Shown: positions 2,843 to 13,285 of the stretch, one piece after another
How positions within the stretch are numbered: position 1 is the stretch's first letter
Layout of the letters: each line of letters begins with the position of its first letter
Source of the DNA: Acidobacteriota bacterium
Lineage (GTDB): Bacteria; Acidobacteriota; Terriglobia; Acidiferrales; UBA7541
Direction: 5' to 3'
Assembly (NCBI GenBank): GCA_021780215.1
Contig: JAJXZD010000212.1
Span: 1-39,619, forward strand
Length of the DNA stretch: 39,619 nt
The notes under the pieces: model-generated
Told to the model about the DNA's origin: nothing
Seen by the model: only the letters and a program-made list of their open reading frames with translations
Database searches by the model: none
Translations under genes and position numbers: made by a program

Positions 2843-3508
2843 CTACTGCAAAATCCACGGCCCCGTCTTCTCCGTGAAGCGGCATCCATAGTGGCGGACC
2901 GAACCTGGCTGGCCCTCCGCATGCATAATCATCGCCTTCCCCACATATTCCTCTCGCCCCTTGATCATGGACACCTCCACGACCGACTGGACGGGGAGAT
3001 CTTTCGCGGAGAGGAAGAGGAATCCGTTCAAGCTGACATTCTCGGTGGTGACTGTTTCTTCAATCACAACCCCCTGCTGGCTCGTGCCGCGCAGCTTCAG
3101 AGGAACGTGCAGCCGCACGCGCACTTCGCTGCGAGGAACATACAGCCGCGACTTGATCACCCGGTTCAGGCATGCCCGGAGCTCGACCATGTCCACCGGT
3201 TTCTCGAAGAATTCCGTGGCTCCAAGCTGTTTGCAGTATTCCTTCGTCTGCGCCCCTCCCTCCCCACTGACGATCACGACGGGAATGGACTGGGTCCGGC
3301 TGAAAGAGGTAAAGGTCTGGCAGAGCTCGTATCCGGAATACTTGGGCATGCGCAAATCAAGGAGGATCGCATCGGGACGGTGTTCCAGCGCGAGGGCCAG
3401 GCCGTTTTCCGGCTCGCCGGTGCCGATCACCTCATACGTGTCGCCCAGTTCGATACTCATCAGTCGGCGCAGCCTCTCGTCATCATCCACCACAAGCAGC
3501 TTTGACAT
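2843..3508 (-). CDS. Receiver-PilZ response regulator (c-di-GMP binding)
   Basis: A 221-residue fusion of a CheY-like receiver and a PilZ domain. The receiver begins KLLVVDDDERLRRL, has the phospho-acceptor Asp in ILLDLRMPKYSG, and the Lys in FFEKPVDM. The PilZ part starts near residue 130: RSEVR gives the RxxxR c-di-GMP motif and NVSLNG gives the (D/N)xSxxG motif, so ligand binding is likely. It presumably reads c-di-GMP and phosphorylation state together. The ATG at 3508 is preferred because AGGAGG lies about 10 bases upstream; a start at 3529 would overlap the kinase stop as ATGA and add seven residues. It is transcribed directly after the hybrid histidine kinase and is very likely in the same operon. 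The output partner is not visible. Confidence 0.92.
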   Translation of the reverse strand: MSKLLVVDDDERLRRLMSIELGDTYEVIGTGEPENGLALALEHRPDAILLDLRMPKYSGYELCQTFTSFSRTQSIPVVIVSGEGGAQTKEYCKQLGATEFFEKPVDMVELRACLNRVIKSRLYVPRSEVRVRLHVPLKLRGTSQQGVVIEETVTTENVSLNGFLFLSAKDLPVQSVVEVSMIKGREEYVGKAMIMHAEGQPGSVRHYGCRFTEKTGPWILQ

Positions 3509-3525
3509 GCGTCCGTTGCCTCCTG

Positions 3526-5832
3526 TCATTTCCGCAATCCCGCTTCCTCCGGCGCAAGCGCAGCCGTCCGCATCGGATGCGCCCGCCCAGTTTTCCTCAA
3601 CACTTCCCGAACTTTTTCCATAAGGACCTCTTCGGTGAACGGCTTGTGGAGTAGATTCGTTCCGCTCTCGAGCACGCCATGGCCCGCGATGAAGCTGTCC
3701 GTATAGCCGGACATGAACAGCACGGAAAGCCCCGGTTGGCGGACTGCGAGTTGCTCGGCGAGCGCGCGTCCGTTCATCCCCGGCATGACCACGTCCGTCA
3801 GAAGTAGATCAATCGGGCCGGGGTGGCGCGCGGCAATCTCGAGAGCTTCCTCTCCGCGCGGCGCGGAAAGCACCCGAAAGCCGTTTGCCTCAAGAAACGA
3901 CTGCGCCAACTTGCGCAATGGATCGGCGTCCTCCACCAGAAGAATCGTCTGTGCGCCGCTTTGGTTCTCGAATCGCTCAACCACCGGCATGGCATCCTCT
4001 TCACCCGCTGCTCCCCAGTGCACCGGGAGGTAGATTTGAAAGGACGAACCCTGCCCCGGCGTGCTGTCCACCCAGATATACCCGTTGCTTTGCTTGACCA
4101 CACCATAGACGGTTGCGAGGCCGAGCCCGGTTCCCTTTCCAATCTCCTTGGTGGTGAAAAATGGCTCAAAAATATGCGCCACTGTTTCCGGATCCATGCC
4201 CGTTCCCGTGTCCGTAATGGCCAGTCGGACGTACTCTCCGGCGCGCGAGCCTGGATGATCGTGGGTATACGTCTGGTCGAGCTCGACGTTGGAAGTCTCA
4301 ATCCAGAGCTTCCCGCCGGACGGCATGGCGTCGCGCGCGTTCACCGCCAGATTCATAATCACCTGTTCGATCTGGCTGGGGTCGGCCTGCACATTTCCAA
4401 GCTGCGGGTCCAGGGACATCGCGATGCTGATGTCCTCGCCCAGAAGGCGCGGCAGCATCTTCTCCATTTCACCCACCAGGACGTTCAAATTCAGCACCGA
4501 GGGTGTCAGGACCTGCTGCCTGCTGAAGGCCAGCAGTTGACGGGTCAGCGACGCCGCGCTCCGCCCGGCCTTCTCGATTTCCGTGGCATGCTCGTAGGCG
4601 GGCTGGCTCGGATCGAGCGATTTCTTCAGCACGCCGCTGTATCCGATAATGACGCCCAGCAAGTTATTGAAGTCATGAGCGATCCCGCCGGAAAGCCGCC
4701 CGATCGCTTCCATTTTTTGCGCCATCCGCAGCTTGCGCTCCAGCGCTCGTTTCTCGGTGACGTCCTCGGCAAAAACCTCAAAATACGCCGGGGCGCCCTC
4801 CTTGTCGCTGACGCGATGGCCCGAACAACGCACCGCAATCGGCTGGCCGTCCCGCTTTTTCCATTCCAGGTCAACGTCCTTCATCTCCTCCATGCGGGAA
4901 AGCAGGTCGCAGGTCCGCTGATATTCGGCCGCGTGGCGGAAGACCTGCGTGGCCAGGTCGGCCCGGAGAAGCTCGTCCGGCGAGTCATAACCAAGCATAC
5001 GTCGCAGGGCCGAGTTCACTTGAAGCAGTTGCCCGCTCATTGTGGCGCGATAGATACCGTATGGCGCACCCTCGACCATCGACCGGAAACTTGCTTCCGA
5101 CCGGGACAACGCCTCCTCGGCCCGCTTGCGCTCGGTCACATTGCGATTGACGATCAGGAGCTTTTCCGGCATGCCGTTTGCGTCCCGGATTACGCTCGCC
5201 GCTGACTCCAAGACCAGCCAGTTCCCGTTCCGGTGCCGGAAACGATATTCAATGGTGGACCCCACTCCGGTGCGCCGCGCCTCCAAGGCGACCATCCTGA
5301 CCCGCGCACGGTCCTCCGGGTGAACCTGCTCGAACCCAGAGGATCCCTGAATCTCCTCGGGAGAATATCCAAGAATCTTCTGGTAGGAGAGGCTGTTGTA
5401 AATCCTCCGCCCTTCCATGTCCACGATGGCGATCATGTCCTCCGCGTTCTCGCTGATCAGCTGAAAGAGGACTTCCCGCTCGATGAGCTGGCGGCGAATG
5501 CTATAAATCTGGTAATGCTGGTAGATGACGTAGAGGTCGAAAAGCAATACCAGAGCTGCCAGCCCTCTCACCGCGTGAGGCAACAGATAGGCCGAATGCA
5601 AATCCCAGCGGAGCGAGCTGTTCGGGAGAAGGAAGGAGGCCAGAGCACCTGTTAACAGCAGGGTGATGACACCGGAGGTCACCCAAAGCCACCATTCTCG
5701 TCGCTCGATCCTGTGGTAACTGGCGCGCAGTGCTCGCCCTTCGGCAGTCTGAAGGTGCTTCATGGCGCTGTCGTGGGGCTCAAGAGCCGCCTCCCTATCG
5801 GCGGTTCTCCCTCCTGTATGAGATTTCCCCAT
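3526..5832 (-). CDS. Membrane PAS-PAS hybrid histidine kinase with C-terminal receiver
   Basis: A 768-residue sensor kinase. Two hydrophobic segments (about 47-69 and 81-104) anchor it in the membrane with only a short loop between them, so sensing is likely intracellular or within the membrane. Two PAS/PAC domains follow (about 125-245, with [11 protein letters not shown] at the end, and 250-370, with [10 protein letters not shown]). The dimerisation domain has the phospho-acceptor His in [12 protein letters not shown]. The ATPase domain shows the N box [10 protein letters not shown], the G1 box DTGTGMD and the G2 box [13 protein letters not shown]. The C-terminal receiver has [23 protein letters not shown] and the Lys in LLHKPF. 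I start it at ATG 5832 (GGGGG upstream); an open frame extends 90 codons further but looks non-coding. A likely partner is the adjacent receiver-PilZ protein. Domain calls are firm; the ligand is unknown. Confidence 0.93.
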
Positions 5833-6095: not shown

Positions 6096-6109
6096 GTGAC
6101 ATTAGTCAC
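6096..6109 (+). promoter_or_regulatory. CRP/FNR-type palindrome, site 2
   Basis: GTGA (6096-6099), six bases, TCAC (6106-6109); the match extends to five-base arms, GTGAC and GTCAC. It overlaps the first possible GTG start of the ferredoxin frame, which argues that translation begins further downstream. A weak -10-like GTATCC lies at 6132-6137, which would place this site's centre near -41.5. Confidence 0.5.
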
Positions 6110-6146
6110 TGCTTCGTTCTACCCTTTCGCGGTATCCAGCCTAGTT

Positions 6147-6467
6147 GTGAACTCAGGACGCGAACATTCGGCGGGCCAGCAAGTCTATGCCGAGCCGAAC
6201 CGTCCAACTCCTGGGCGCCCCCTCCTGTTCGATCCGAACGTCTGCAACGGATGCAATCTGTGCGTGACGGTCTGCCCTGAGGATGTCTTCATCCCCAATG
6301 CCACCAAGGGCCAGCCGCCAATCATCCTGTATCCCGAGGAGTGCTGGTATTGCGGCGTGTGCGTGGACGACTGTAATCACCCCGGAGCCATCCGGCTGAG
6401 CCATCCCCTGCAACAGCGCGCGCGCTGGAAGCGCAAGGCGACTGGTGAGCACTTCCGTCTGAGATAA
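6147..6467 (+). CDS. Small ferredoxin with two 4Fe-4S clusters, AprB-like
   Basis: An electron-transfer protein of about 106 residues. Two cluster motifs are complete: CNGCNLCVTVCP and CWYCGVCVDDC, the latter followed by NHPGA rather than the usual Pro. The order and spacing recall the beta subunit of dissimilatory adenylylsulfate reductase, but the long AprB tail is missing: only about 30 residues follow the second cluster. It ends three bases before the flavoprotein start, so the pair is presumably one operon and one complex. The start is uncertain. GTG 6147 is chosen because the upstream alternative, GTG 6096, lies inside a palindromic operator and its GGGAA abuts the codon; neither has a good ribosome binding site. 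Electron carrier for the flavoprotein is inference. Confidence 0.82.
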   Translation: MNSGREHSAGQQVYAEPNRPTPGRPLLFDPNVCNGCNLCVTVCPEDVFIPNATKGQPPIILYPEECWYCGVCVDDCNHPGAIRLSHPLQQRARWKRKATGEHFRLR

Positions 6468-6470
6468 CCC

Positions 6471-8474
6471 ATGAGTGCCAACGACCGCCACCTCTGGCCC
6501 TATCCCATCCGGTATGGACAGACCGATACGCATGAGACGGATGTGCTGATTTTGGGCGGAGGAATTGCCGGAGTGTGGGCCGCCATCTCGGCGCGCAGGA
6601 CTGGGGCGCGAGTGGCCATCATGGAGAAGGCGGACACCCGGCGCAGCGGCGCCGGCGGCACCGGCGTGGACCATTGGGGATACGCGGCGGACAATCCCTG
6701 CTCAACCATCACTCCGGAGGAAATGACCCGGGCACTGGTCGATAACCATTTTGGCTACCGGAGCGGCATCTCGACGTACATTCTCGCCTCCTCCGCATAC
6801 GAAACGTTGCTCGAGTTGGAATCCATGGGCGGAAAAGTGCGCGACACGGAGGGTGAATTCAAGGGCGCCCCCTTCCGCGACGACAAGACCAAGTTGCTCT
6901 TCGCCTACGACTACGACAGTCGCTACTGTATCCGCGTTTGGGGAGCGAACTTCAAGCCCTTGCTGCACAGGCAGTGCAGACGGCTGGGTGTCGAGCTGCT
7001 TGATCGGACCACCGCCACCGCGTTGCTGACCGAAGATGGCGAGCACGGTGCCCGCGTGGTCGGGGCGATGGGGATCAACTGCCACACGGGGGCGTTCGTG
7101 GTGGTCCGGGCCAAGGCGGTGATCCTTTCCACGAACCGCCCGCAACGCATTTTCACTTTTTCCTCCGAACATCGCGGAGCGGCCGCGCATCGCGGGGGAT
7201 CGAACGTCGGCAACGGATATGCCATGGCATGGCGCATCGGGGCGGAATTCACTCTGATGGAAAAGACCATCCGCTCGCCCTTCGCCAGCCCCTATTCCTA
7301 TCCCACCTACGGCACGGGCAACGCGCTCAACACCTGGTACCCCTGCACGATCGTGGATGCGAACAACAAAGAAGTACCCTGGGTGGATTGCAATGGCCTC
7401 GTGCTGGCGACGGTGGAGGAGCGATGCCATCCCGCGGCGGGGCAGAAATTCTTCTTGATGGGCGGCGGCAATGCCTCGCAACCCCACCCCGGCCTGAAGC
7501 AGTATGCCGGCCCGAAGCTGATCCCGGACCTCGAGGAACGCATGAGGAAGGGCGAGTTCACGCCGCCCTTCTATGCGGACCTGACCAGCATGCCCTGGTA
7601 CGAACGAAAGGCAATTTGGGGACTGATGGTCGGACAGGAAGGCAGAACCCGCGTGCCCATCGTGCAGACCTACGAGGCTTCGGGTTTCGATCCCTCGAAG
7701 GACATGCTGCAGACCTATGATTTTCTACGCGGCCAGGGCATGCGGGAGTTCATGATGCCGCAGGAGCGGACCTTCGGAGAGATTGGAGTCGCCGGAGGGC
7801 TGGTAACCGACTGGGATCTGATGTCCAACATTCCGGGGCTGTTCGGGGCGGGCGACCTGCTGTTCGGCAGTCAGGACCACGTCAACGCGGCGACGACGGG
7901 GCGCTATGCGGGCGCGCGCGCGGCGCTCTATGCCCGCGGCGCAGGCCTGGGAAAATTGGGCGCGGCGCAAATCGAAAGCGAGAAGAATCGTGCGCTGGCT
8001 CCCCTGGCCGAGATGCCGGACAGCATTGACTGGAAGGAGCTGAACTTCGGCGTCGCCCGCGTGATGCAGAACTACTGCGCCGAGCTGAAGAATGAGGAGT
8101 TGCTCTCACTGGCCGAAACCTGGCTCGCGGATCTCGAGCAGAACGAAGTCCGCAAGGTGTTCGCCGGAAACCCGCACCAGCTCATGCGCGCGCTGGATGT
8201 GATGGACATTCTGACCTGCGCGCAGATGATCGTGCATGCTTCGAAGGCCCGCCGCGCCAGCAGCGAGGTGCTCAGCTTCAGCCGCCTCGATTATCCCGAA
8301 AACGATCCGGCCGAGTGGCACAAGTACATTGTGATTCGCCAGGACCAGCCAGGTCGCGTCCATACCAGCGGCCGCCCGCTCGGCTTCTGGGGCCCCTACC
8401 AGCCAAACTACGGCCCGCGCCACGCGGAAAACCTCGCCGCCATGCAGGCCGGGCCTGCCCCCGCCATGCCCTGA
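6471..8474 (+). CDS. FAD-dependent oxidoreductase, adenylylsulfate reductase alpha/fumarate reductase-like flavoprotein
   Basis: A 667-residue flavoprotein. The N-terminus has a Rossmann FAD site, DVLILGGGIAGVWAA, then MEKADTRRSGAGGTGVDHWG. Near residue 460 an NIPGLFGAGDLLFGSQDHVNA segment closes the FAD domain, resembling AprA more than succinate dehydrogenase (no HGANRLGG-type motif). The C-terminal part has SRLDYPENDPAEWHKYI, like the AprA helical tail. Length also fits the AprA class. With the adjacent ferredoxin it forms an AprBA-like pair, but there is no sulfate adenylyltransferase, QmoABC or DsrAB nearby, so real APS reduction is unlikely or at least unsupported. I call it an orphan flavoprotein of unknown substrate. 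Start ATG 6471 lies four bases after the ferredoxin stop, with only weak GAG-type ribosome binding. Confidence 0.85.
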   Translation: MSANDRHLWPYPIRYGQTDTHETDVLILGGGIAGVWAAISARRTGARVAIMEKADTRRSGAGGTGVDHWGYAADNPCSTITPEEMTRALVDNHFGYRSGISTYILASSAYETLLELESMGGKVRDTEGEFKGAPFRDDKTKLLFAYDYDSRYCIRVWGANFKPLLHRQCRRLGVELLDRTTATALLTEDGEHGARVVGAMGINCHTGAFVVVRAKAVILSTNRPQRIFTFSSEHRGAAAHRGGSNVGNGYAMAWRIGAEFTLMEKTIRSPFASPYSYPTYGTGNALNTWYPCTIVDANNKEVPWVDCNGLVLATVEERCHPAAGQKFFLMGGGNASQPHPGLKQYAGPKLIPDLEERMRKGEFTPPFYADLTSMPWYERKAIWGLMVGQEGRTRVPIVQTYEASGFDPSKDMLQTYDFLRGQGMREFMMPQERTFGEIGVAGGLVTDWDLMSNIPGLFGAGDLLFGSQDHVNAATTGRYAGARAALYARGAGLGKLGAAQIESEKNRALAPLAEMPDSIDWKELNFGVARVMQNYCAELKNEELLSLAETWLADLEQNEVRKVFAGNPHQLMRALDVMDILTCAQMIVHASKARRASSEVLSFSRLDYPENDPAEWHKYIVIRQDQPGRVHTSGRPLGFWGPYQPNYGPRHAENLAAMQAGPAPAMP

Positions 8475-8492
8475 ACCACGCCGGCCCCGGAA

Positions 8493-8521
8493 TTGCCTGT
8501 GTGCATGGGCAAGTGTATATT
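8493..8521 (+). promoter_or_regulatory. Sigma70-type promoter of aceA
   Basis: TTGCCT (8493-8498), a 17-bp spacer, and TATATT (8516-8521). This predicts a start near 8528 and a leader of about 67 bases, long enough to contain the GGAGG ribosome binding site of aceA. The spacer and -35 also form a TTGCC/GGCAA inverted pair (8493-8497 and 8508-8512), a possible operator. Confidence 0.5.
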
Positions 8522-8553
8522 GGCAGCCAGACTGAAATAGACGCGCATTCCCT

Positions 8554-8572
8554 TTGAATCGCGGGAATTCAA
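8554..8572 (+). repeat. Inverted repeat in the aceA leader
   Basis: TTGAAT (8554-8559) and ATTCAA (8567-8572) flank seven GC-rich bases, just before the ribosome binding site. It could be an operator or a small hairpin that affects translation. Six-base arms can occur by chance, so this is tentative. Confidence 0.35.
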
Positions 8573-8594
8573 GAGAGACAAACGGAGGATGTCC

Positions 8595-9884
8595 ATGATC
8601 GGCCTTCCCACGGTGGAAGAAATCAAGAAAGACTGGGCTTCGGAGCGCTGGAAAGAAATCCTGCGCCCGTACGCACCAGAAGATATTGAGAGATTGCGCG
8701 GCACGGTCAGGATTGAACACAGCCTGGCCCGGATGGGCGCGGAGCGGCTCTGGCAGCTCCTGCGCACTGACGATTTCATTCCCGCGCTGGGTGCCCTGAC
8801 GGGAAATCAGGCCATTCAGCAGGTGGAAGCCGGCCTGAAAGCAATCTATCTGAGCGGCTGGCAAGTGGCTGCGGACAACAACACAGCCGGCCAGATGTAC
8901 CCCGATCAGAGTTTGTATCCTGCCGATAGCGTGCCGAACGTGGTCCGGCGTATCAACAACGCCCTCCAGCGCGCCGACCAGATTCAGCATGCCGACGGCC
9001 GCAAGCATGGCCCCTACTGGTTCGCTCCCATCATTGCGGATGCCGAGGCAGGCTTCGGCGGGCCGCTGAACGCCTTCGAGTTGATGAAGGCCATGATCGA
9101 GGCCGGCGCCGCCGGAGTCCATTTCGAGGACCAGTTGGCGTCGGCAAAGAAGTGCGGGCACATGGGAGGAAAAGTTCTCGTGCCCATCCAGGAAGCGATT
9201 CAGAAGCTGGTAGCGGCGCGGTTCGCGGCGGACCTGATGAACGTCCCGACGGTCCTGGTGGCGCGGACGGACGCCAACGGAGCGTTTCTGATCACCAGCG
9301 ACATTGACGAGCGCGACCGGGAGTTTCTCACCGGCGAGCGCACCGTGGAGGGCTTCTACCGGCTTCGCGGCGGAATCGAATGCGCCATCGCCCGTGGCCT
9401 GGCCTACTGCCCCTATGCGGACATGATCTGGTGCGAAACGTCCAAGCCAGACATGAAGGAGGCGCGCGTCTTCGCTGAAGGCATCCACAAGCAGTATCCC
9501 GGCAAGCTGCTGAGCTACAATTGCTCGCCGTCCTTCAACTGGTCGGGCAATCTCGACCCCGCGGAGATCTCCGGCTTCCAGAAGGAACTCGGAGCCATGG
9601 GCTACAAGTTCCAGTTCGTCACCTTGGCGGGATTCCACGCCCTCAACCTCGGCATGTTCGAACTCGCGCAAACCTACAAGAAAGAAGGCATGGCAGCCTA
9701 CGCGCGCTTCCAGAACAAAGAATTCGAACACGAAAAGGGCAGCGGCTACATGGCCACGACACACCAGCGATTCGTCGGGACAAGCTATTTCGACGTAATC
9801 GCCGAGAAGATCGTGGGCGCTGGAATGTCCACCGCCGCGCTGGCTGGTTCGACCGAGGAGGCTCAGTTCAAAAAAGCCCGGTGA
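8595..9884 (+). CDS. aceA: Isocitrate lyase
   Basis: Splits isocitrate into glyoxylate and succinate, the first step of the glyoxylate shunt for growth on acetate or fatty acids; a cytosolic, Mg-dependent tetramer. The 429-residue length and motifs match canonical bacterial [15 protein letters not shown], the catalytic loop [20 protein letters not shown], and the substrate segment YNCSPSFNW. Start choice: GGAGG (8584-8588) abuts an ATG at 8589, which is too close, while the in-frame ATG at 8595 has ideal six-base spacing. It has its own promoter and an inverted repeat in its leader. No malate synthase gene is in the window. It sits between the flavoprotein and the selenoprotein genes on the same strand. 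Function is secure. Confidence 0.96.
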
Positions 9885-9991
9885 GTTGCGCGGGCGGCTG
9901 CACTTCCTCGGAGCAATTCGAAACGTAAGGCGGGGGGCCTCGGCGGCCCACTCGGATACAGTGGATCGGGCGTGAAAGGCGAGGTGCCATC

Positions 9992-11755
9992 ATGAACCGT
10001 CGAAAACTGCTGTCCCTCCTGGGGCTCTCCCCTGCTCTCCTGGCAGGCGCCGCGGCCGGCGAGCGGAACGCCATAGCAGCCGGCAAGCCAGCAAAAACCG
10101 CCCAGGGCGGAGATAAGATCGTCGCCCTCAATCCGAAGGGGACGCCGCCCCCCATCCGTCTGATTCCAATGGCACCCCGCCTGAAGACCCTGGACGGGAA
10201 AACCGTCTATTTGGTGGACACCGGTTTTCCGGGCGGCGGCCTGCTGCTGCAGCAGATCCAGATCTGGTTTCAAAAGAACATGCCGGGCGTAAAGACGGTC
10301 TTCCACCGGAAGGCCGGGCCGTACATGGAGGACGATCCCGCCCTCTGGAAGGAGATTCAGGAAAAGGGCAACGCGGCGATCATGGCTGTCGGACATTGAA
10401 GCACTTGCACGCCAGCGACCGTCGGTCACTGCATCAGCGTGGAAAAACTGGGAATCCCCACCACTCCGTTGGTCACGGAGGCCTTCAAGGAACTGGCAAC
10501 CCTCAACGCTGCCAAGCGGGGCATGCCGCATATCCGCATTACGTTCACGCCGCACCCGGTGGCCGGAAAGACGCCGGAGGAACTGCACGCGTACGTGGAA
10601 GGAAATGATCCCGTCAGCGGAAAGCCGCTGATGCGCGAGATCGTGGACGCGCTTACGCGGCCCCTCTCGGCCGAGGACATGAAAACGGGTACGATCTCTC
10701 CTTCCGTGGGAGCGCCCGCATTCACCGACACCGCCGACAACCTGCAGGAGTATTACCTCAACAACGGGATGACCGATTTCCTTCCGATCATTCTCCCGAC
10801 CGAGGAGCGCGTACAGACCATGCTGGCAGGTACCAGCCACCGTCCGGAAGAAATCGCCGGCAAAATGGCGGCCGGAGCCTACGCCCCCTGGGAATTCACG
10901 GTCAAGCAGGTGGCCATCAACGCAGTGATGGCGGGATGCCGCCCGGAATATTTTCCGATTGTTCTGGCCATCGCTTCCACCGGCACTCCATCGCTCATGA
11001 GCTCCACGAATTCCTTTGCCTACGCCGCGGTGATCAACGGGCCAATTCGCGACAAGCTGAATATGAATTACGGCATTGGAGCCATGGGGCCTTTTGCCCA
11101 GCCGAATGCCGCGATCGGACGGGCCTGGACGCTGCTTTCGAGGAATCTCGCCAACGGCGGCGTCCCCGGCGACACCTACATGGGGTCGCAGGGGAACAAC
11201 CTGAACTACAACAACCTGATCATTGCCGAAAATGAAGCCGCCAGCCCGTGGACGCCCTTCCACGTGCAGAAGGGCTTCCGTCCCGAGGAGAATGTGGTGA
11301 GCTTGTTCCGCGGGCTCGGCATTGCGCCCGGACAAGGTGCGCGCGGAACCGACAAGGTCATTCCCGTCTACGAGGAGCAGTTCAGCGATCTCTTCAGCGT
11401 GTTCACGGGATTTTTTGGCGGCCTCATCGTGGCCGATCCTCTGATCGCCCAGAGCCTTAAATCACGCGGCTACGACACCAAGGAAAAGCTCATTGACTGG
11501 CTCTACAAGAACACCACACAAACGATAAAGGATTACAAAGAACGCGATTTCGCCTACGGCTTCGATTATCCTCGCTCCTTGAAGGGGATCGAGCCATACG
11601 CCACCTGGTACAAACTCCCCGACGACGCCCGTATACCGCGCTGGCCGCATGTCAGCGACATTAACGTGGTGGTCGTCGGAGGACAGACCAACGCCTTCTT
11701 CCAGGGCGGGAGCCTGAGTTACACGGTCAGCGTGTCCGTTGACAAATGGTCCTGA
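9992..11755 (+). CDS. UGSC-family selenoprotein read through an in-frame TGA (Sec136)
   Basis: Two apparent frames (9992-10399 and 10439-11755) are in the same phase and are separated only by TGA at 10397-10399. Read as selenocysteine they give one 587-residue protein with a redox-type U136-S-T-C139 motif in VGH-U-STCTPATVGHC. The family, as I recall it, carries UGSC or CGSC here, with unknown function. A SECIS-like hairpin starts eight bases after the TGA. The N-terminus MNRRKLLSLLG followed by a hydrophobic stretch to about residue 30 looks like a Tat signal, so the protein may act in the periplasm. The N-terminal domain runs to about 225. The C-terminal domain (about 235-587) has AINAVMAGCRPEYFPIVLA, an INGPIR segment and SQGNNLNYNN. 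GAGGT lies seven bases before ATG 9992. Recoding is inferred from sequence; a nonsense mutation is the main alternative. Confidence 0.85.
10408..10441 (+). promoter_or_regulatory. SECIS-like hairpin for selenocysteine insertion
   Basis: Lower stem CACGC (10408-10412) with GCGTG (10437-10441); a five-base 3' bulge; CAG with CTG; a C/A mismatch; upper stem GACC (10417-10420) with GGTC (10424-10427); apical loop GTC (10421-10423). There are 21 bases between the TGA and the loop, and the loop begins with G. Both fit the known rules for bacterial SECIS elements, which bind SelB just after the UGA. Confidence 0.75.
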
Positions 11756-11833
11756 CGGAAAGTTGAGTCGCCGGACCGAGGCACGGCTTGCCTCCACGCG
11801 GGACCGCAGGCATTTCCCTAAGTCCCGTCCACG

Positions 11834-13285
11834 TCATTGGGCGGGCGGCTTGGGGGTCGCAACCGTCGAGTCGCTCGAGAAATCAAACCACAGCGCATAT
11901 TCCGTCGGCACATCGTGGCCGCCCGCCCGCGCCGGCGTGAATTTCCAGCGCTGCGCCGCATCCATTGCCAGCCGCGCAAAATATTTGCTGGGACCCGGTG
12001 ATTCGAAATCCGCTCCCACCACATCGCCCTCGGCATTGACCTGAACGCGGATTCCGACTCGAATTGTCCCTCGAATTGTGTCGCGCGCCATTTCTGGAAC
12101 CAGCGGCAGGACCTGCCGGGCGACCTGCCCCTGAATAATTTCGCCCCCGCCTGCCGCTCCCGTCTGGATATTTTCCTGTGGCGGCTGTGAAGCGGCGCCG
12201 GACTCGACCGGCGCGGGGGCGGTAGCTGCCGGCCCAGAGGTTGCAGAGCGCCCAGGCGCACTCGATACGGGGTGCGCAATTGGCTCGGACGCTTCCCGAG
12301 ATAGCAGCGTCGCGGTGGCCGGCGCGTCGGCGGGCTCCGGCCTGGCTGAGTGCGATATGAACAGTCTGGAAGCAAACAGCACGACGGCCAGCGCAATCAG
12401 GCCTATTGCAGCGGCGGGGACATACGCGCGCCATGTGGGCGCTGCCTGCGAGACCGCGGGCCTCGTTGGGCGCGGCGCGGGTGCGCGCGGCGAGCTCTGA
12501 GAAATCTTTTCGCTCCCCGGCATGGATGGTTGCAGCGCATTCGAAATATCAGCGAGAGTGAAGCGAAGCGTGGCGTCGCGCCGAAGGCAGCCGCGGGCAA
12601 TATCGAGAAATGGAGCCGGGAGAGTTGCCGGCGATATCGGGTCTTGGTCCCGCTGCTCCCAGGCGGGTCTGTGCTGGGTCAGCGTTTCCACCAGCGTGAT
12701 ACCGAGCGACCAGACGTCCGCGGCCGGCGAATATCCCTCGCGGGGAATTTCCGGCGCGTCGTAGGCACCGGGCTTCTCCCGGCGCGAGCTGAATTCCCCC
12801 ACATGGTGGATTCCGTCGCTCGACAATTTCACCTGGTTGCCAATTGCCAGGATGTTCGATGGCTTGATGCGGGCATGCACCAGATTCTGCCCATGAAGGT
12901 CGGCCAGGGTTTCGAGGACCGGGCCCAGCATCTCGCGAACTTCTTCCGGCGTGAGGTCGCGCTCCGGAAGAATCTGCGAGGGGCTTTCGTCCTCGTGCTC
13001 CATCACGGCGTAAACAACGTCCTTGCCTCCCACTTCGCACTGCCCGGTGGAAAAAAAGCGGATCAGGTGAGGATGGCTAAGGTGCTCGGCCCGGCGCCAG
13101 CGGGAGAGTAGCGCCTCCCCCTGGGCACGGTTACAAGCAACGAGTTTGATGGCTGCTTGGATTGGCTGCGGACCAGCCACTTCGGTGAGATACACCGCAG
13201 ACTGGTCCGTCCCTCCCAGGTACTCGCCAAGAGGAAATCTTCTGCCGGCGACCTGTCCTTGGCACTGCTTCCACCAGTTGGTCAT
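11834..13285 (-). CDS. Degenerate protein-kinase-fold/TonB C-terminal fusion, membrane protein
   Basis: A 483-residue protein. Residues 15-255 have a Ser/Thr kinase fold: AAIK with the ATP-site Lys (47), YDAPE and DVWSLGITLVE. Catalytic residues are lost: HRD is HAR (137-139), so the base Asp is absent; DFG reads SDG (156-158); and the Gly loop is degenerate (LGGTDQS). It is therefore probably a pseudokinase. A Pro/Ala-rich linker leads to one membrane helix (about 288-310), then an Ala/Pro-rich periplasmic spacer, then a TonB C-terminal domain (about 390-472, with GTIRVGIRVQVNAEGDVV and AMDAAQRWKFTPA). Topology implies a cytosolic kinase fold and a periplasmic TonB domain. ATG 13285 has a G-rich ribosome site nearby. 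The role is unknown; it may transmit a cytosolic signal to an outer-membrane partner. Confidence 0.87.
   Translation of the reverse strand: MTNWWKQCQGQVAGRRFPLGEYLGGTDQSAVYLTEVAGPQPIQAAIKLVACNRAQGEALLSRWRRAEHLSHPHLIRFFSTGQCEVGGKDVVYAVMEHEDESPSQILPERDLTPEEVREMLGPVLETLADLHGQNLVHARIKPSNILAIGNQVKLSSDGIHHVGEFSSRREKPGAYDAPEIPREGYSPAADVWSLGITLVETLTQHRPAWEQRDQDPISPATLPAPFLDIARGCLRRDATLRFTLADISNALQPSMPGSEKISQSSPRAPAPRPTRPAVSQAAPTWRAYVPAAAIGLIALAVVLFASRLFISHSARPEPADAPATATLLSREASEPIAHPVSSAPGRSATSGPAATAPAPVESGAASQPPQENIQTGAAGGGEIIQGQVARQVLPLVPEMARDTIRGTIRVGIRVQVNAEGDVVGADFESPGPSKYFARLAMDAAQRWKFTPARAGGHDVPTEYALWFDFSSDSTVATPKPPAQ

Follow-up and report, generated by a model that had tools for sequence, protein, structure and literature searches.

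A two-domain UGSC-type selenoprotein gene in an acidobacterial genome with twelve such copies, and its probable kinship to the selenocysteine region of GrdB and PrdB

The window, a stretch of 39,619 nucleotides from an Acidobacteriota bacterium (GenBank assembly GCA_021780215.1, contig JAJXZD010000212.1), carries a gene that an earlier note, made from the sequence alone, had read as an exported selenoprotein whose frame is broken by one TGA (Table 1). The coordinates bear out this layout: the ATG at 9992, the internal TGA, a GTG at 10439 and the final TGA at 11753-11755 share one phase, the internal TGA is the sole break, and translation through it gives 587 residues with the motif U136-S-T-C139. 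Reading the sequence by eye, we found GAGG 8-11 nt upstream of the ATG and saw no ribosome-binding-like sequence upstream of the GTG, as the earlier note had also held.

Table 1. Features of the locus, with positions in the window
Feature	Position	Strand	Basis or remark
Ferredoxin-like gene, upstream, context only	6096..6467	+	profile matches
Fumarate reductase/APS reductase-like flavoprotein gene, context only	6471..8474	+	profile matches
Isocitrate lyase gene, 108 nt upstream of the UGSC-type gene, context only	8589..9884	+	738 bits
Two-domain UGSC-type selenoprotein gene	9992..11755	+	587 residues, TGA 10397-10399 read as selenocysteine (Sec)
Predicted twin-arginine (Tat) signal peptide, MNRRKLLSLLGLSPALLAG..., end approximate	9992..10075	+	sequence; RR starts in 8 of 12 paralogues; TatC in genome; low-confidence tail in model
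UGSC domain, residues 65-229, alpha/beta Rossmann-like, homologous to the GrdB/PrdB Sec region	10184..10678	+	profiles, model
TGA as Sec136 of the U-S-T-C motif; Cys139 encoded at 10406-10408	10397..10399	+	codon census, motif
Probable SECIS hairpin CAG.GACC(GUC)GGUC.CUG; loop starts 24 nt past the U of UGA	10413..10431	+	folding, frozen synonymous sites
C-terminal domain, residues 236-587; N349, E413 and E415 invariant	10697..11752	+	alignment; without Pfam match

The two halves of the frame each matched Pfam PF24696 on their own (27.2 and 54.5 bits, profile stretches 4-92 and 96-160; cut-off 25), and the joined protein matched it at 101.2 bits over residues 48-203. Since the halves match adjoining stretches of one profile, the broken frame is more than chance. 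The NCBIfam equivalog model for UGSC (NF041046) gave 80.2 bits, below its curated cut-off of 125. Membership of the UGSC family, which the earlier note had proposed, thus stands by Pfam and falls short by NCBIfam, and having passed one cut-off and missed the other, the protein can be described as a divergent two-domain form. By Pfam, the product falls in a selenoprotein family that is known but has yet to be characterised, and is a divergent, fused and strongly expanded form of it, probably exported as judged from its sequence. The predicted structure model is confident (pLDDT 92.3), with a Rossmann-like fold for the Sec domain. The C-terminal domain had no Pfam match and no clear solved relative among the structure chains compared; with its invariant Asn and Glu residues it probably binds the substrate.

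The protein begins MNRRKLLSLLG..., an RR motif followed by a hydrophobic stretch, and TatC is encoded in the genome, so that it has the sequence features of a Tat substrate. Among the twelve copies of the family in this genome, eight start with RR and a hydrophobic stretch, one with a plain hydrophobic stretch and three without an evident signal. If these Tat-like starts are used, eight of the twelve copies, this one included, would work folded in the periplasm. Proteins pass through the Tat system in the folded state, a fitting route for a Sec enzyme assembled in the cytoplasm. The earlier suggestion of a Tat-like start therefore holds, but the combination of Sec with Tat, which had been called rare, has a precedent in E. 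coli formate dehydrogenase N (FdnG), a Tat-exported selenoprotein.

The source assembly (2.97 Mb, 246 contigs, 92.8% complete, 0.45% contaminated) encodes the Sec machinery, with all components over cut-off: tRNA-Sec with anticodon TCA (65.5 bits), SelB (376.8), SelA (548.9) and SelD (365.4). These are the selA, selB, selC and selD genes for which a search had been proposed. In several genomes of the same bacterial family (G066, G080, G062 and G085) the selA match falls into two parts of one open frame (534-550 residues), as though an in-frame insertion separated them.

Named genomes were scanned with patterns placed in the C-terminal domain, and the best 80 matches were kept, giving 79 foreign loci; because of this choice of patterns, the Sec site itself was not selected for. 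Among the matches listed, these loci held 109 domain hits, and dropping 17 with a gap at the Sec column left 92. At that column we counted 71 TGA, 15 TGC, 1 TGT and 5 other codons (CTG, TTA, ATG, TCA and GCC), with no TAA or TAG in any of the 92 domains. Sec or Cys (16 domains) thus stands at this position in 87 of the 92, in agreement with the proposal that the TGA encodes selenocysteine. A local sequencing error is very unlikely, as the matching codon is TGA in many other assemblies too. The closest named relative among the matches listed (81%) comes from an acidobacterial MAG, isolate palsa_295, and a gene from the genus of the source genome (locus L052) has Cys in the equivalent motif, GHCSTCTPATVGHC. 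That the motif USTC departs from the name of the family is true, but it is no oddity, being the commonest motif among the TGA relatives listed (38 of 71, against 2 of 71 for UGSC). Alignment A2 was built from 75 foreign hits of at least 480 residues with at most one TGA and with TGA, TGC or TGT at the Sec column, which makes the invariance of that column a matter of construction.

Several of the foreign loci have peculiarities of their own. At L081 and L097 Leu replaces Sec and the second Cys is retained (GQLDTC); these are possibly non-catalytic or single-thiol relatives. In L104, from the Hyphomicrobiales MAG nzgw528, one UGSC copy (about 3190-4851) is broken by three in-frame TGA codons and may be decayed, mis-assembled or multi-Sec; a normal copy with one TGA stands beside it, and selA (581.7 bits) follows downstream of the second UGSC copy at a distance of 129 nt. 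A Sec-type UGSC gene at 4983-6650 of L110 is found in a MAG record titled Klebsiella pneumoniae, a label that is probably wrong.

PF24696 matches the source genome itself at 12 places, and every one of these genes, 557-601 residues long, is interrupted by one in-frame TGA. Their motifs are USTC (four), UGSC (two) and USGC, USSC, USYC, UDGC, UPGC and UHGC (one each), and the other eleven are 29-62% identical to the protein described here. Within the compared set, 10 of the 12 are most similar to a copy from another genome (narrowly so for the copy own3), the remaining two, own0 and own1, being closest to each other; most copies are accordingly old paralogues and not assembly duplicates. The eleven sister genes probably likewise read TGA as Sec, and so divergent a dozen probably serve different substrates. 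On L031 three different UGSC genes (UHGC, UPGC and USYC) stand in tandem at 6501-11931; pyruvate dehydrogenase E1 genes flank them, as do split PPDK_N and PEP-utiliser genes with a biotin carboxylase, an arrangement that we take to resemble phenylphosphate synthase.

Within the bacterial family to which the source genome belongs, UGSC was found in 13 of 89 genomes, all of them of the source genus (13 of its 20 genomes); twelve have 5-17 matches and one has a single short copy, and none of the 69 genomes of other genera had any. A sample of 396 genomes across the phylum gave 41 with UGSC, namely the source genome, ten of another genus (g58) and 30 with one or two matches, mostly short. The short single-domain forms of this sample are open frames of about 170-340 residues scoring about 120-195 bits, one or two per genome. 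The phylum-wide search scored eight candidates per genome, so that its count for the g58 genomes is at least eight each; a full search of the ten gave 10-28 matches each. Among the g58 matches listed, most have one in-frame TGA and a minority none, two have two TGA codons, and in one a TGA occurs together with a TAA.

Conservation of synonymous sites was examined in 16 Sec genes of the same type as the gene in the window, 11 foreign and 5 of the 12 in its genome. Over columns with an invariant residue, pairwise codon identity was 0.948 at positions +1 to +12 after the TGA (9 columns) as against 0.460 elsewhere (121 columns), a value reached by none of 20,000 random sets and the highest of 83 sliding windows. 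As only columns with a single amino acid were counted, protein constraint does not explain this freezing of codons. Frozen synonymous sites 3' of the TGA are what a SECIS element requires. With limits after bSECISearch and a threshold of -3 kcal/mol or better, a SECIS-like hairpin was found for 64 of the 83 Sec sequences, for 5 of the 16 with Cys and for none of the 5 others. When the 83 Sec sequences were reduced to 81 distinct 45-mers, three hairpin classes, defined after looking at the data, covered 69 of 81 Sec and 2 of 16 Cys sequences. The stretch 10412-10433 of the window folds at -7.8 kcal/mol; its inner stem alone reaches -2.5 kcal/mol and misses the threshold, as happens in 6 of the 12 copies of the genome, and the 49-nt fold is not unusual against shuffled sequences (z -1.24). 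Taken by itself the predicted hairpin is thus weak, and the support for a SECIS element is the frozen codons of the group.

Based on these observations we regard it as close to certain that the TGA at 10397 is decoded as Sec, through the putative SECIS hairpin and the SelA, SelB, SelD and tRNA-Sec of the genome. A true stop that separates two genes or marks a decayed gene, or one produced by a sequencing error, is scarcely credible: TGA does work as a stop elsewhere, even at the end of this very gene, and the hairpin in the window is not significant alone, but TGA occupies the equivalent codon in 71 of the 92 foreign domains among the matches listed, all twelve paralogues carry it and run to full length beyond it, ending at TAA or TAG (six) or a further TGA (six), no start signal was seen at the GTG, and the synonymous sites after the TGA are frozen. 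Two separate genes, a pseudogene and a sequencing error were rejected on the joined PF24696 match, the paralogues and the codon census. TGA as a general sense codon was rejected as well, since six of the twelve paralogue frames, that of this gene included, terminate at TGA.

When the UGSC profile was compared by hhalign with the Sec region of GrdB/PrdB (about 110 residues either side of their Sec), the two aligned Sec on Sec over 96 columns with a probability of 95.4% (E 1.7e-8, for a single comparison and not a database search), sharing an E-x-x-G-[IL]-P stretch after the motif and an HP stretch. With the motif masked the probability was 80.1%, with a score of 41.2, where 100 column shuffles gave no more than 24.9; against three PrdB-like proteins alone the probability dropped to 75.3% over 37 columns. 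TIGR01917, the model for glycine reductase selenoprotein B, was hit by 2 of 76 relatives (best 1.3e-6). PF07355 gave no hit to the protein itself at E<=1, which makes it a protein with a homologous Sec domain and not a member of the GrdB/PrdB family. In three PrdB-like proteins of about 410 residues (L158, L159 and L160) the motif UPGC falls at residues 154-155, the Sec domain is followed by a long further part, and the match to the GrdB model is confined to its last third.

Turning to gene neighbourhoods, a gene resembling thioredoxin reductase (TrxR) was found in 12 of the 79 foreign loci among the matches listed, in 8 of these 12 on the same strand within 71 nt. The CxxC is retained in all 12, and two of them scored 274.9 and 311.7 bits against TIGR01292, below its cut-off of 343. 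Of 49 operon-like neighbours 46 were scanned, three short ones being omitted, and their commonest family was pyridine nucleotide-disulphide oxidoreductase (9). No TrxR-like gene was found in the UGSC loci of the source genome, and the ferredoxin, flavoprotein and isocitrate lyase genes of the window were found in no other UGSC locus compared, so that the reductant and the substrate at this locus are guesses. Other neighbours recur in small numbers, some assigned by sequence cluster only: quinoprotein-like dehydrogenases at six loci, three of them in the source genome, and MetE-like proteins at five, one in the source genome and the others mostly proteobacterial. A DesA/LigM-type O-demethylase gene lies near UGSC at three loci: L068 (63 nt away, 801.8 bits against a cut-off of 800), L028 of the source genome (272 nt, 580 bits, truncated by the contig end) and L075 (919 nt, assigned by sequence cluster only). 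Together these few genes give a hint of methoxylated aromatic metabolism.

Our best guess is that the protein is a Sec/Cys reductase that cleaves an activated bond in small organic substrates. A SECIS hairpin just 3' of the TGA would let the SelB system of the genome insert Sec136, and the C-terminal domain would hold a small organic compound. The selenolate of Sec136 might then attack an activated carbon or heteroatom of this substrate and the bond be broken reductively, after which Cys139 would resolve the selenium as an Se-S bond and a reductant reset the enzyme. In proteobacteria and at one Chloroflexi locus this reductant could plausibly be the adjoining TrxR-like flavoprotein. The GrdB-like chemistry is suggested by homology and by the neighbours. 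To the reading as a whole, comprising Sec by way of SECIS, a GrdB-like UGSC domain joined to a C-terminal domain, and reductive cleavage with Sec136 and Cys139, we assign a probability of roughly 0.6. That the substrates are methoxylated, lignin-derived aromatics is a tentative guess.

A thioredoxin-like protein with a UxxC site appears unlikely to us. The motif would suit it, as would the TrxR-like neighbours at 12 of the 79 loci among the matches listed, but the confident model (pLDDT 92.3) shows a Rossmann-like Sec domain and the profiles match GrdB/PrdB; among the 50 rows listed from the structure comparison none is named thioredoxin, an absence that is not exclusion. We give slightly less credence to a carrier or detoxification factor, in which Sec and Cys bind a metal or organometal and are not redox catalysts. 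Such binding is reported for some other selenoprotein families in passages of a 2026 review (PMC13188914). A UxxC site is able to ligate soft metals, acidic residues are conserved in the C-terminal domain, and an RND efflux adaptor lies some kilobases off at L028, but the GrdB/PrdB homology and the TrxR-like neighbours indicate turnover, and no metal-resistance gene recurs among the annotated neighbours, which are part of all neighbours. On a par with this we place a single narrow pathway, in which aryl ethers or other methoxy-aromatics derived from lignin are cleaved reductively. The O-demethylase genes close to UGSC at L068, L028 and L075 speak for it, together with the recurring MetE-like and quinoprotein-like dehydrogenase genes. 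Against it, the demethylase association is confined to three loci, a second strong DesA-like gene of the source genome lies on a contig without a UGSC match (C77), and neighbours vary widely across loci, with none of the methoxy-aromatic kind near the copy in the window.

The earlier interpretation is supported in substance; the multi-copy expansion, the kinship to GrdB/PrdB and the reductase neighbours are additions to it. Twelve genes of a 2.97-Mb acidobacterial genome are given to one uncharacterised Sec family, a second acidobacterial genus has 10-28 copies in each of ten genomes, some copies without TGA, and gene callers that halt at TGA would cut such genes. According to passages of the same review (PMC13188914), the bacteria richest in selenoprotein genes are predominantly anaerobic, their totals across all families reaching 57 and 63 genes. 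It would be a speculative step, doubtful though a little more inviting than the alternatives above, to propose that soil Acidobacteria of two genera hold a large enzyme family of 5-28 paralogues per genome, in which a glycine-reductase-type Sec domain is joined to a substrate domain of unrecognised fold, with many members acting outside the cytoplasm in the selenium-dependent reductive cleavage of diverse plant- or humus-derived compounds. If true, this would be a selenium-based counterpart of glutathione-dependent ether cleavage. In the open-licence literature, as judged by titles and abstract openings, we found neither a multi-copy acidobacterial UGSC family nor a link between UGSC and GrdB.

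Among known systems, FdnG resembles this protein in combining Sec with a Tat signal, but its fold and cofactor are unrelated. The UGSC proteins of PF24696 and NF041046 share the UxxC site, mostly with Sec and in a minority with Cys; the present protein differs from them in its USTC motif, an extra C-terminal domain of about 350 residues, a predicted signal peptide and its many copies. A survey of ocean metagenomes described, in the passages seen here, 255 UGSC selenoprotein sequences and a fusion of the UGSC domain to a conserved domain called 'Unknown_1' (Zhang and Gladyshev 2008, PMC2398784). This domain is likely the C-terminal domain described here; paralogue expansion and Tat starts are absent from those passages of the account. 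With the GrdB/PrdB proteins of glycine, betaine, sarcosine and D-proline reductases (PF07355, TIGR01917, TIGR04483) the likeness lies in the domain of the Sec site, whereas the second domain differs, and this link gives an abundant family a testable chemistry, namely selenolate attack followed by reductive bond cleavage.
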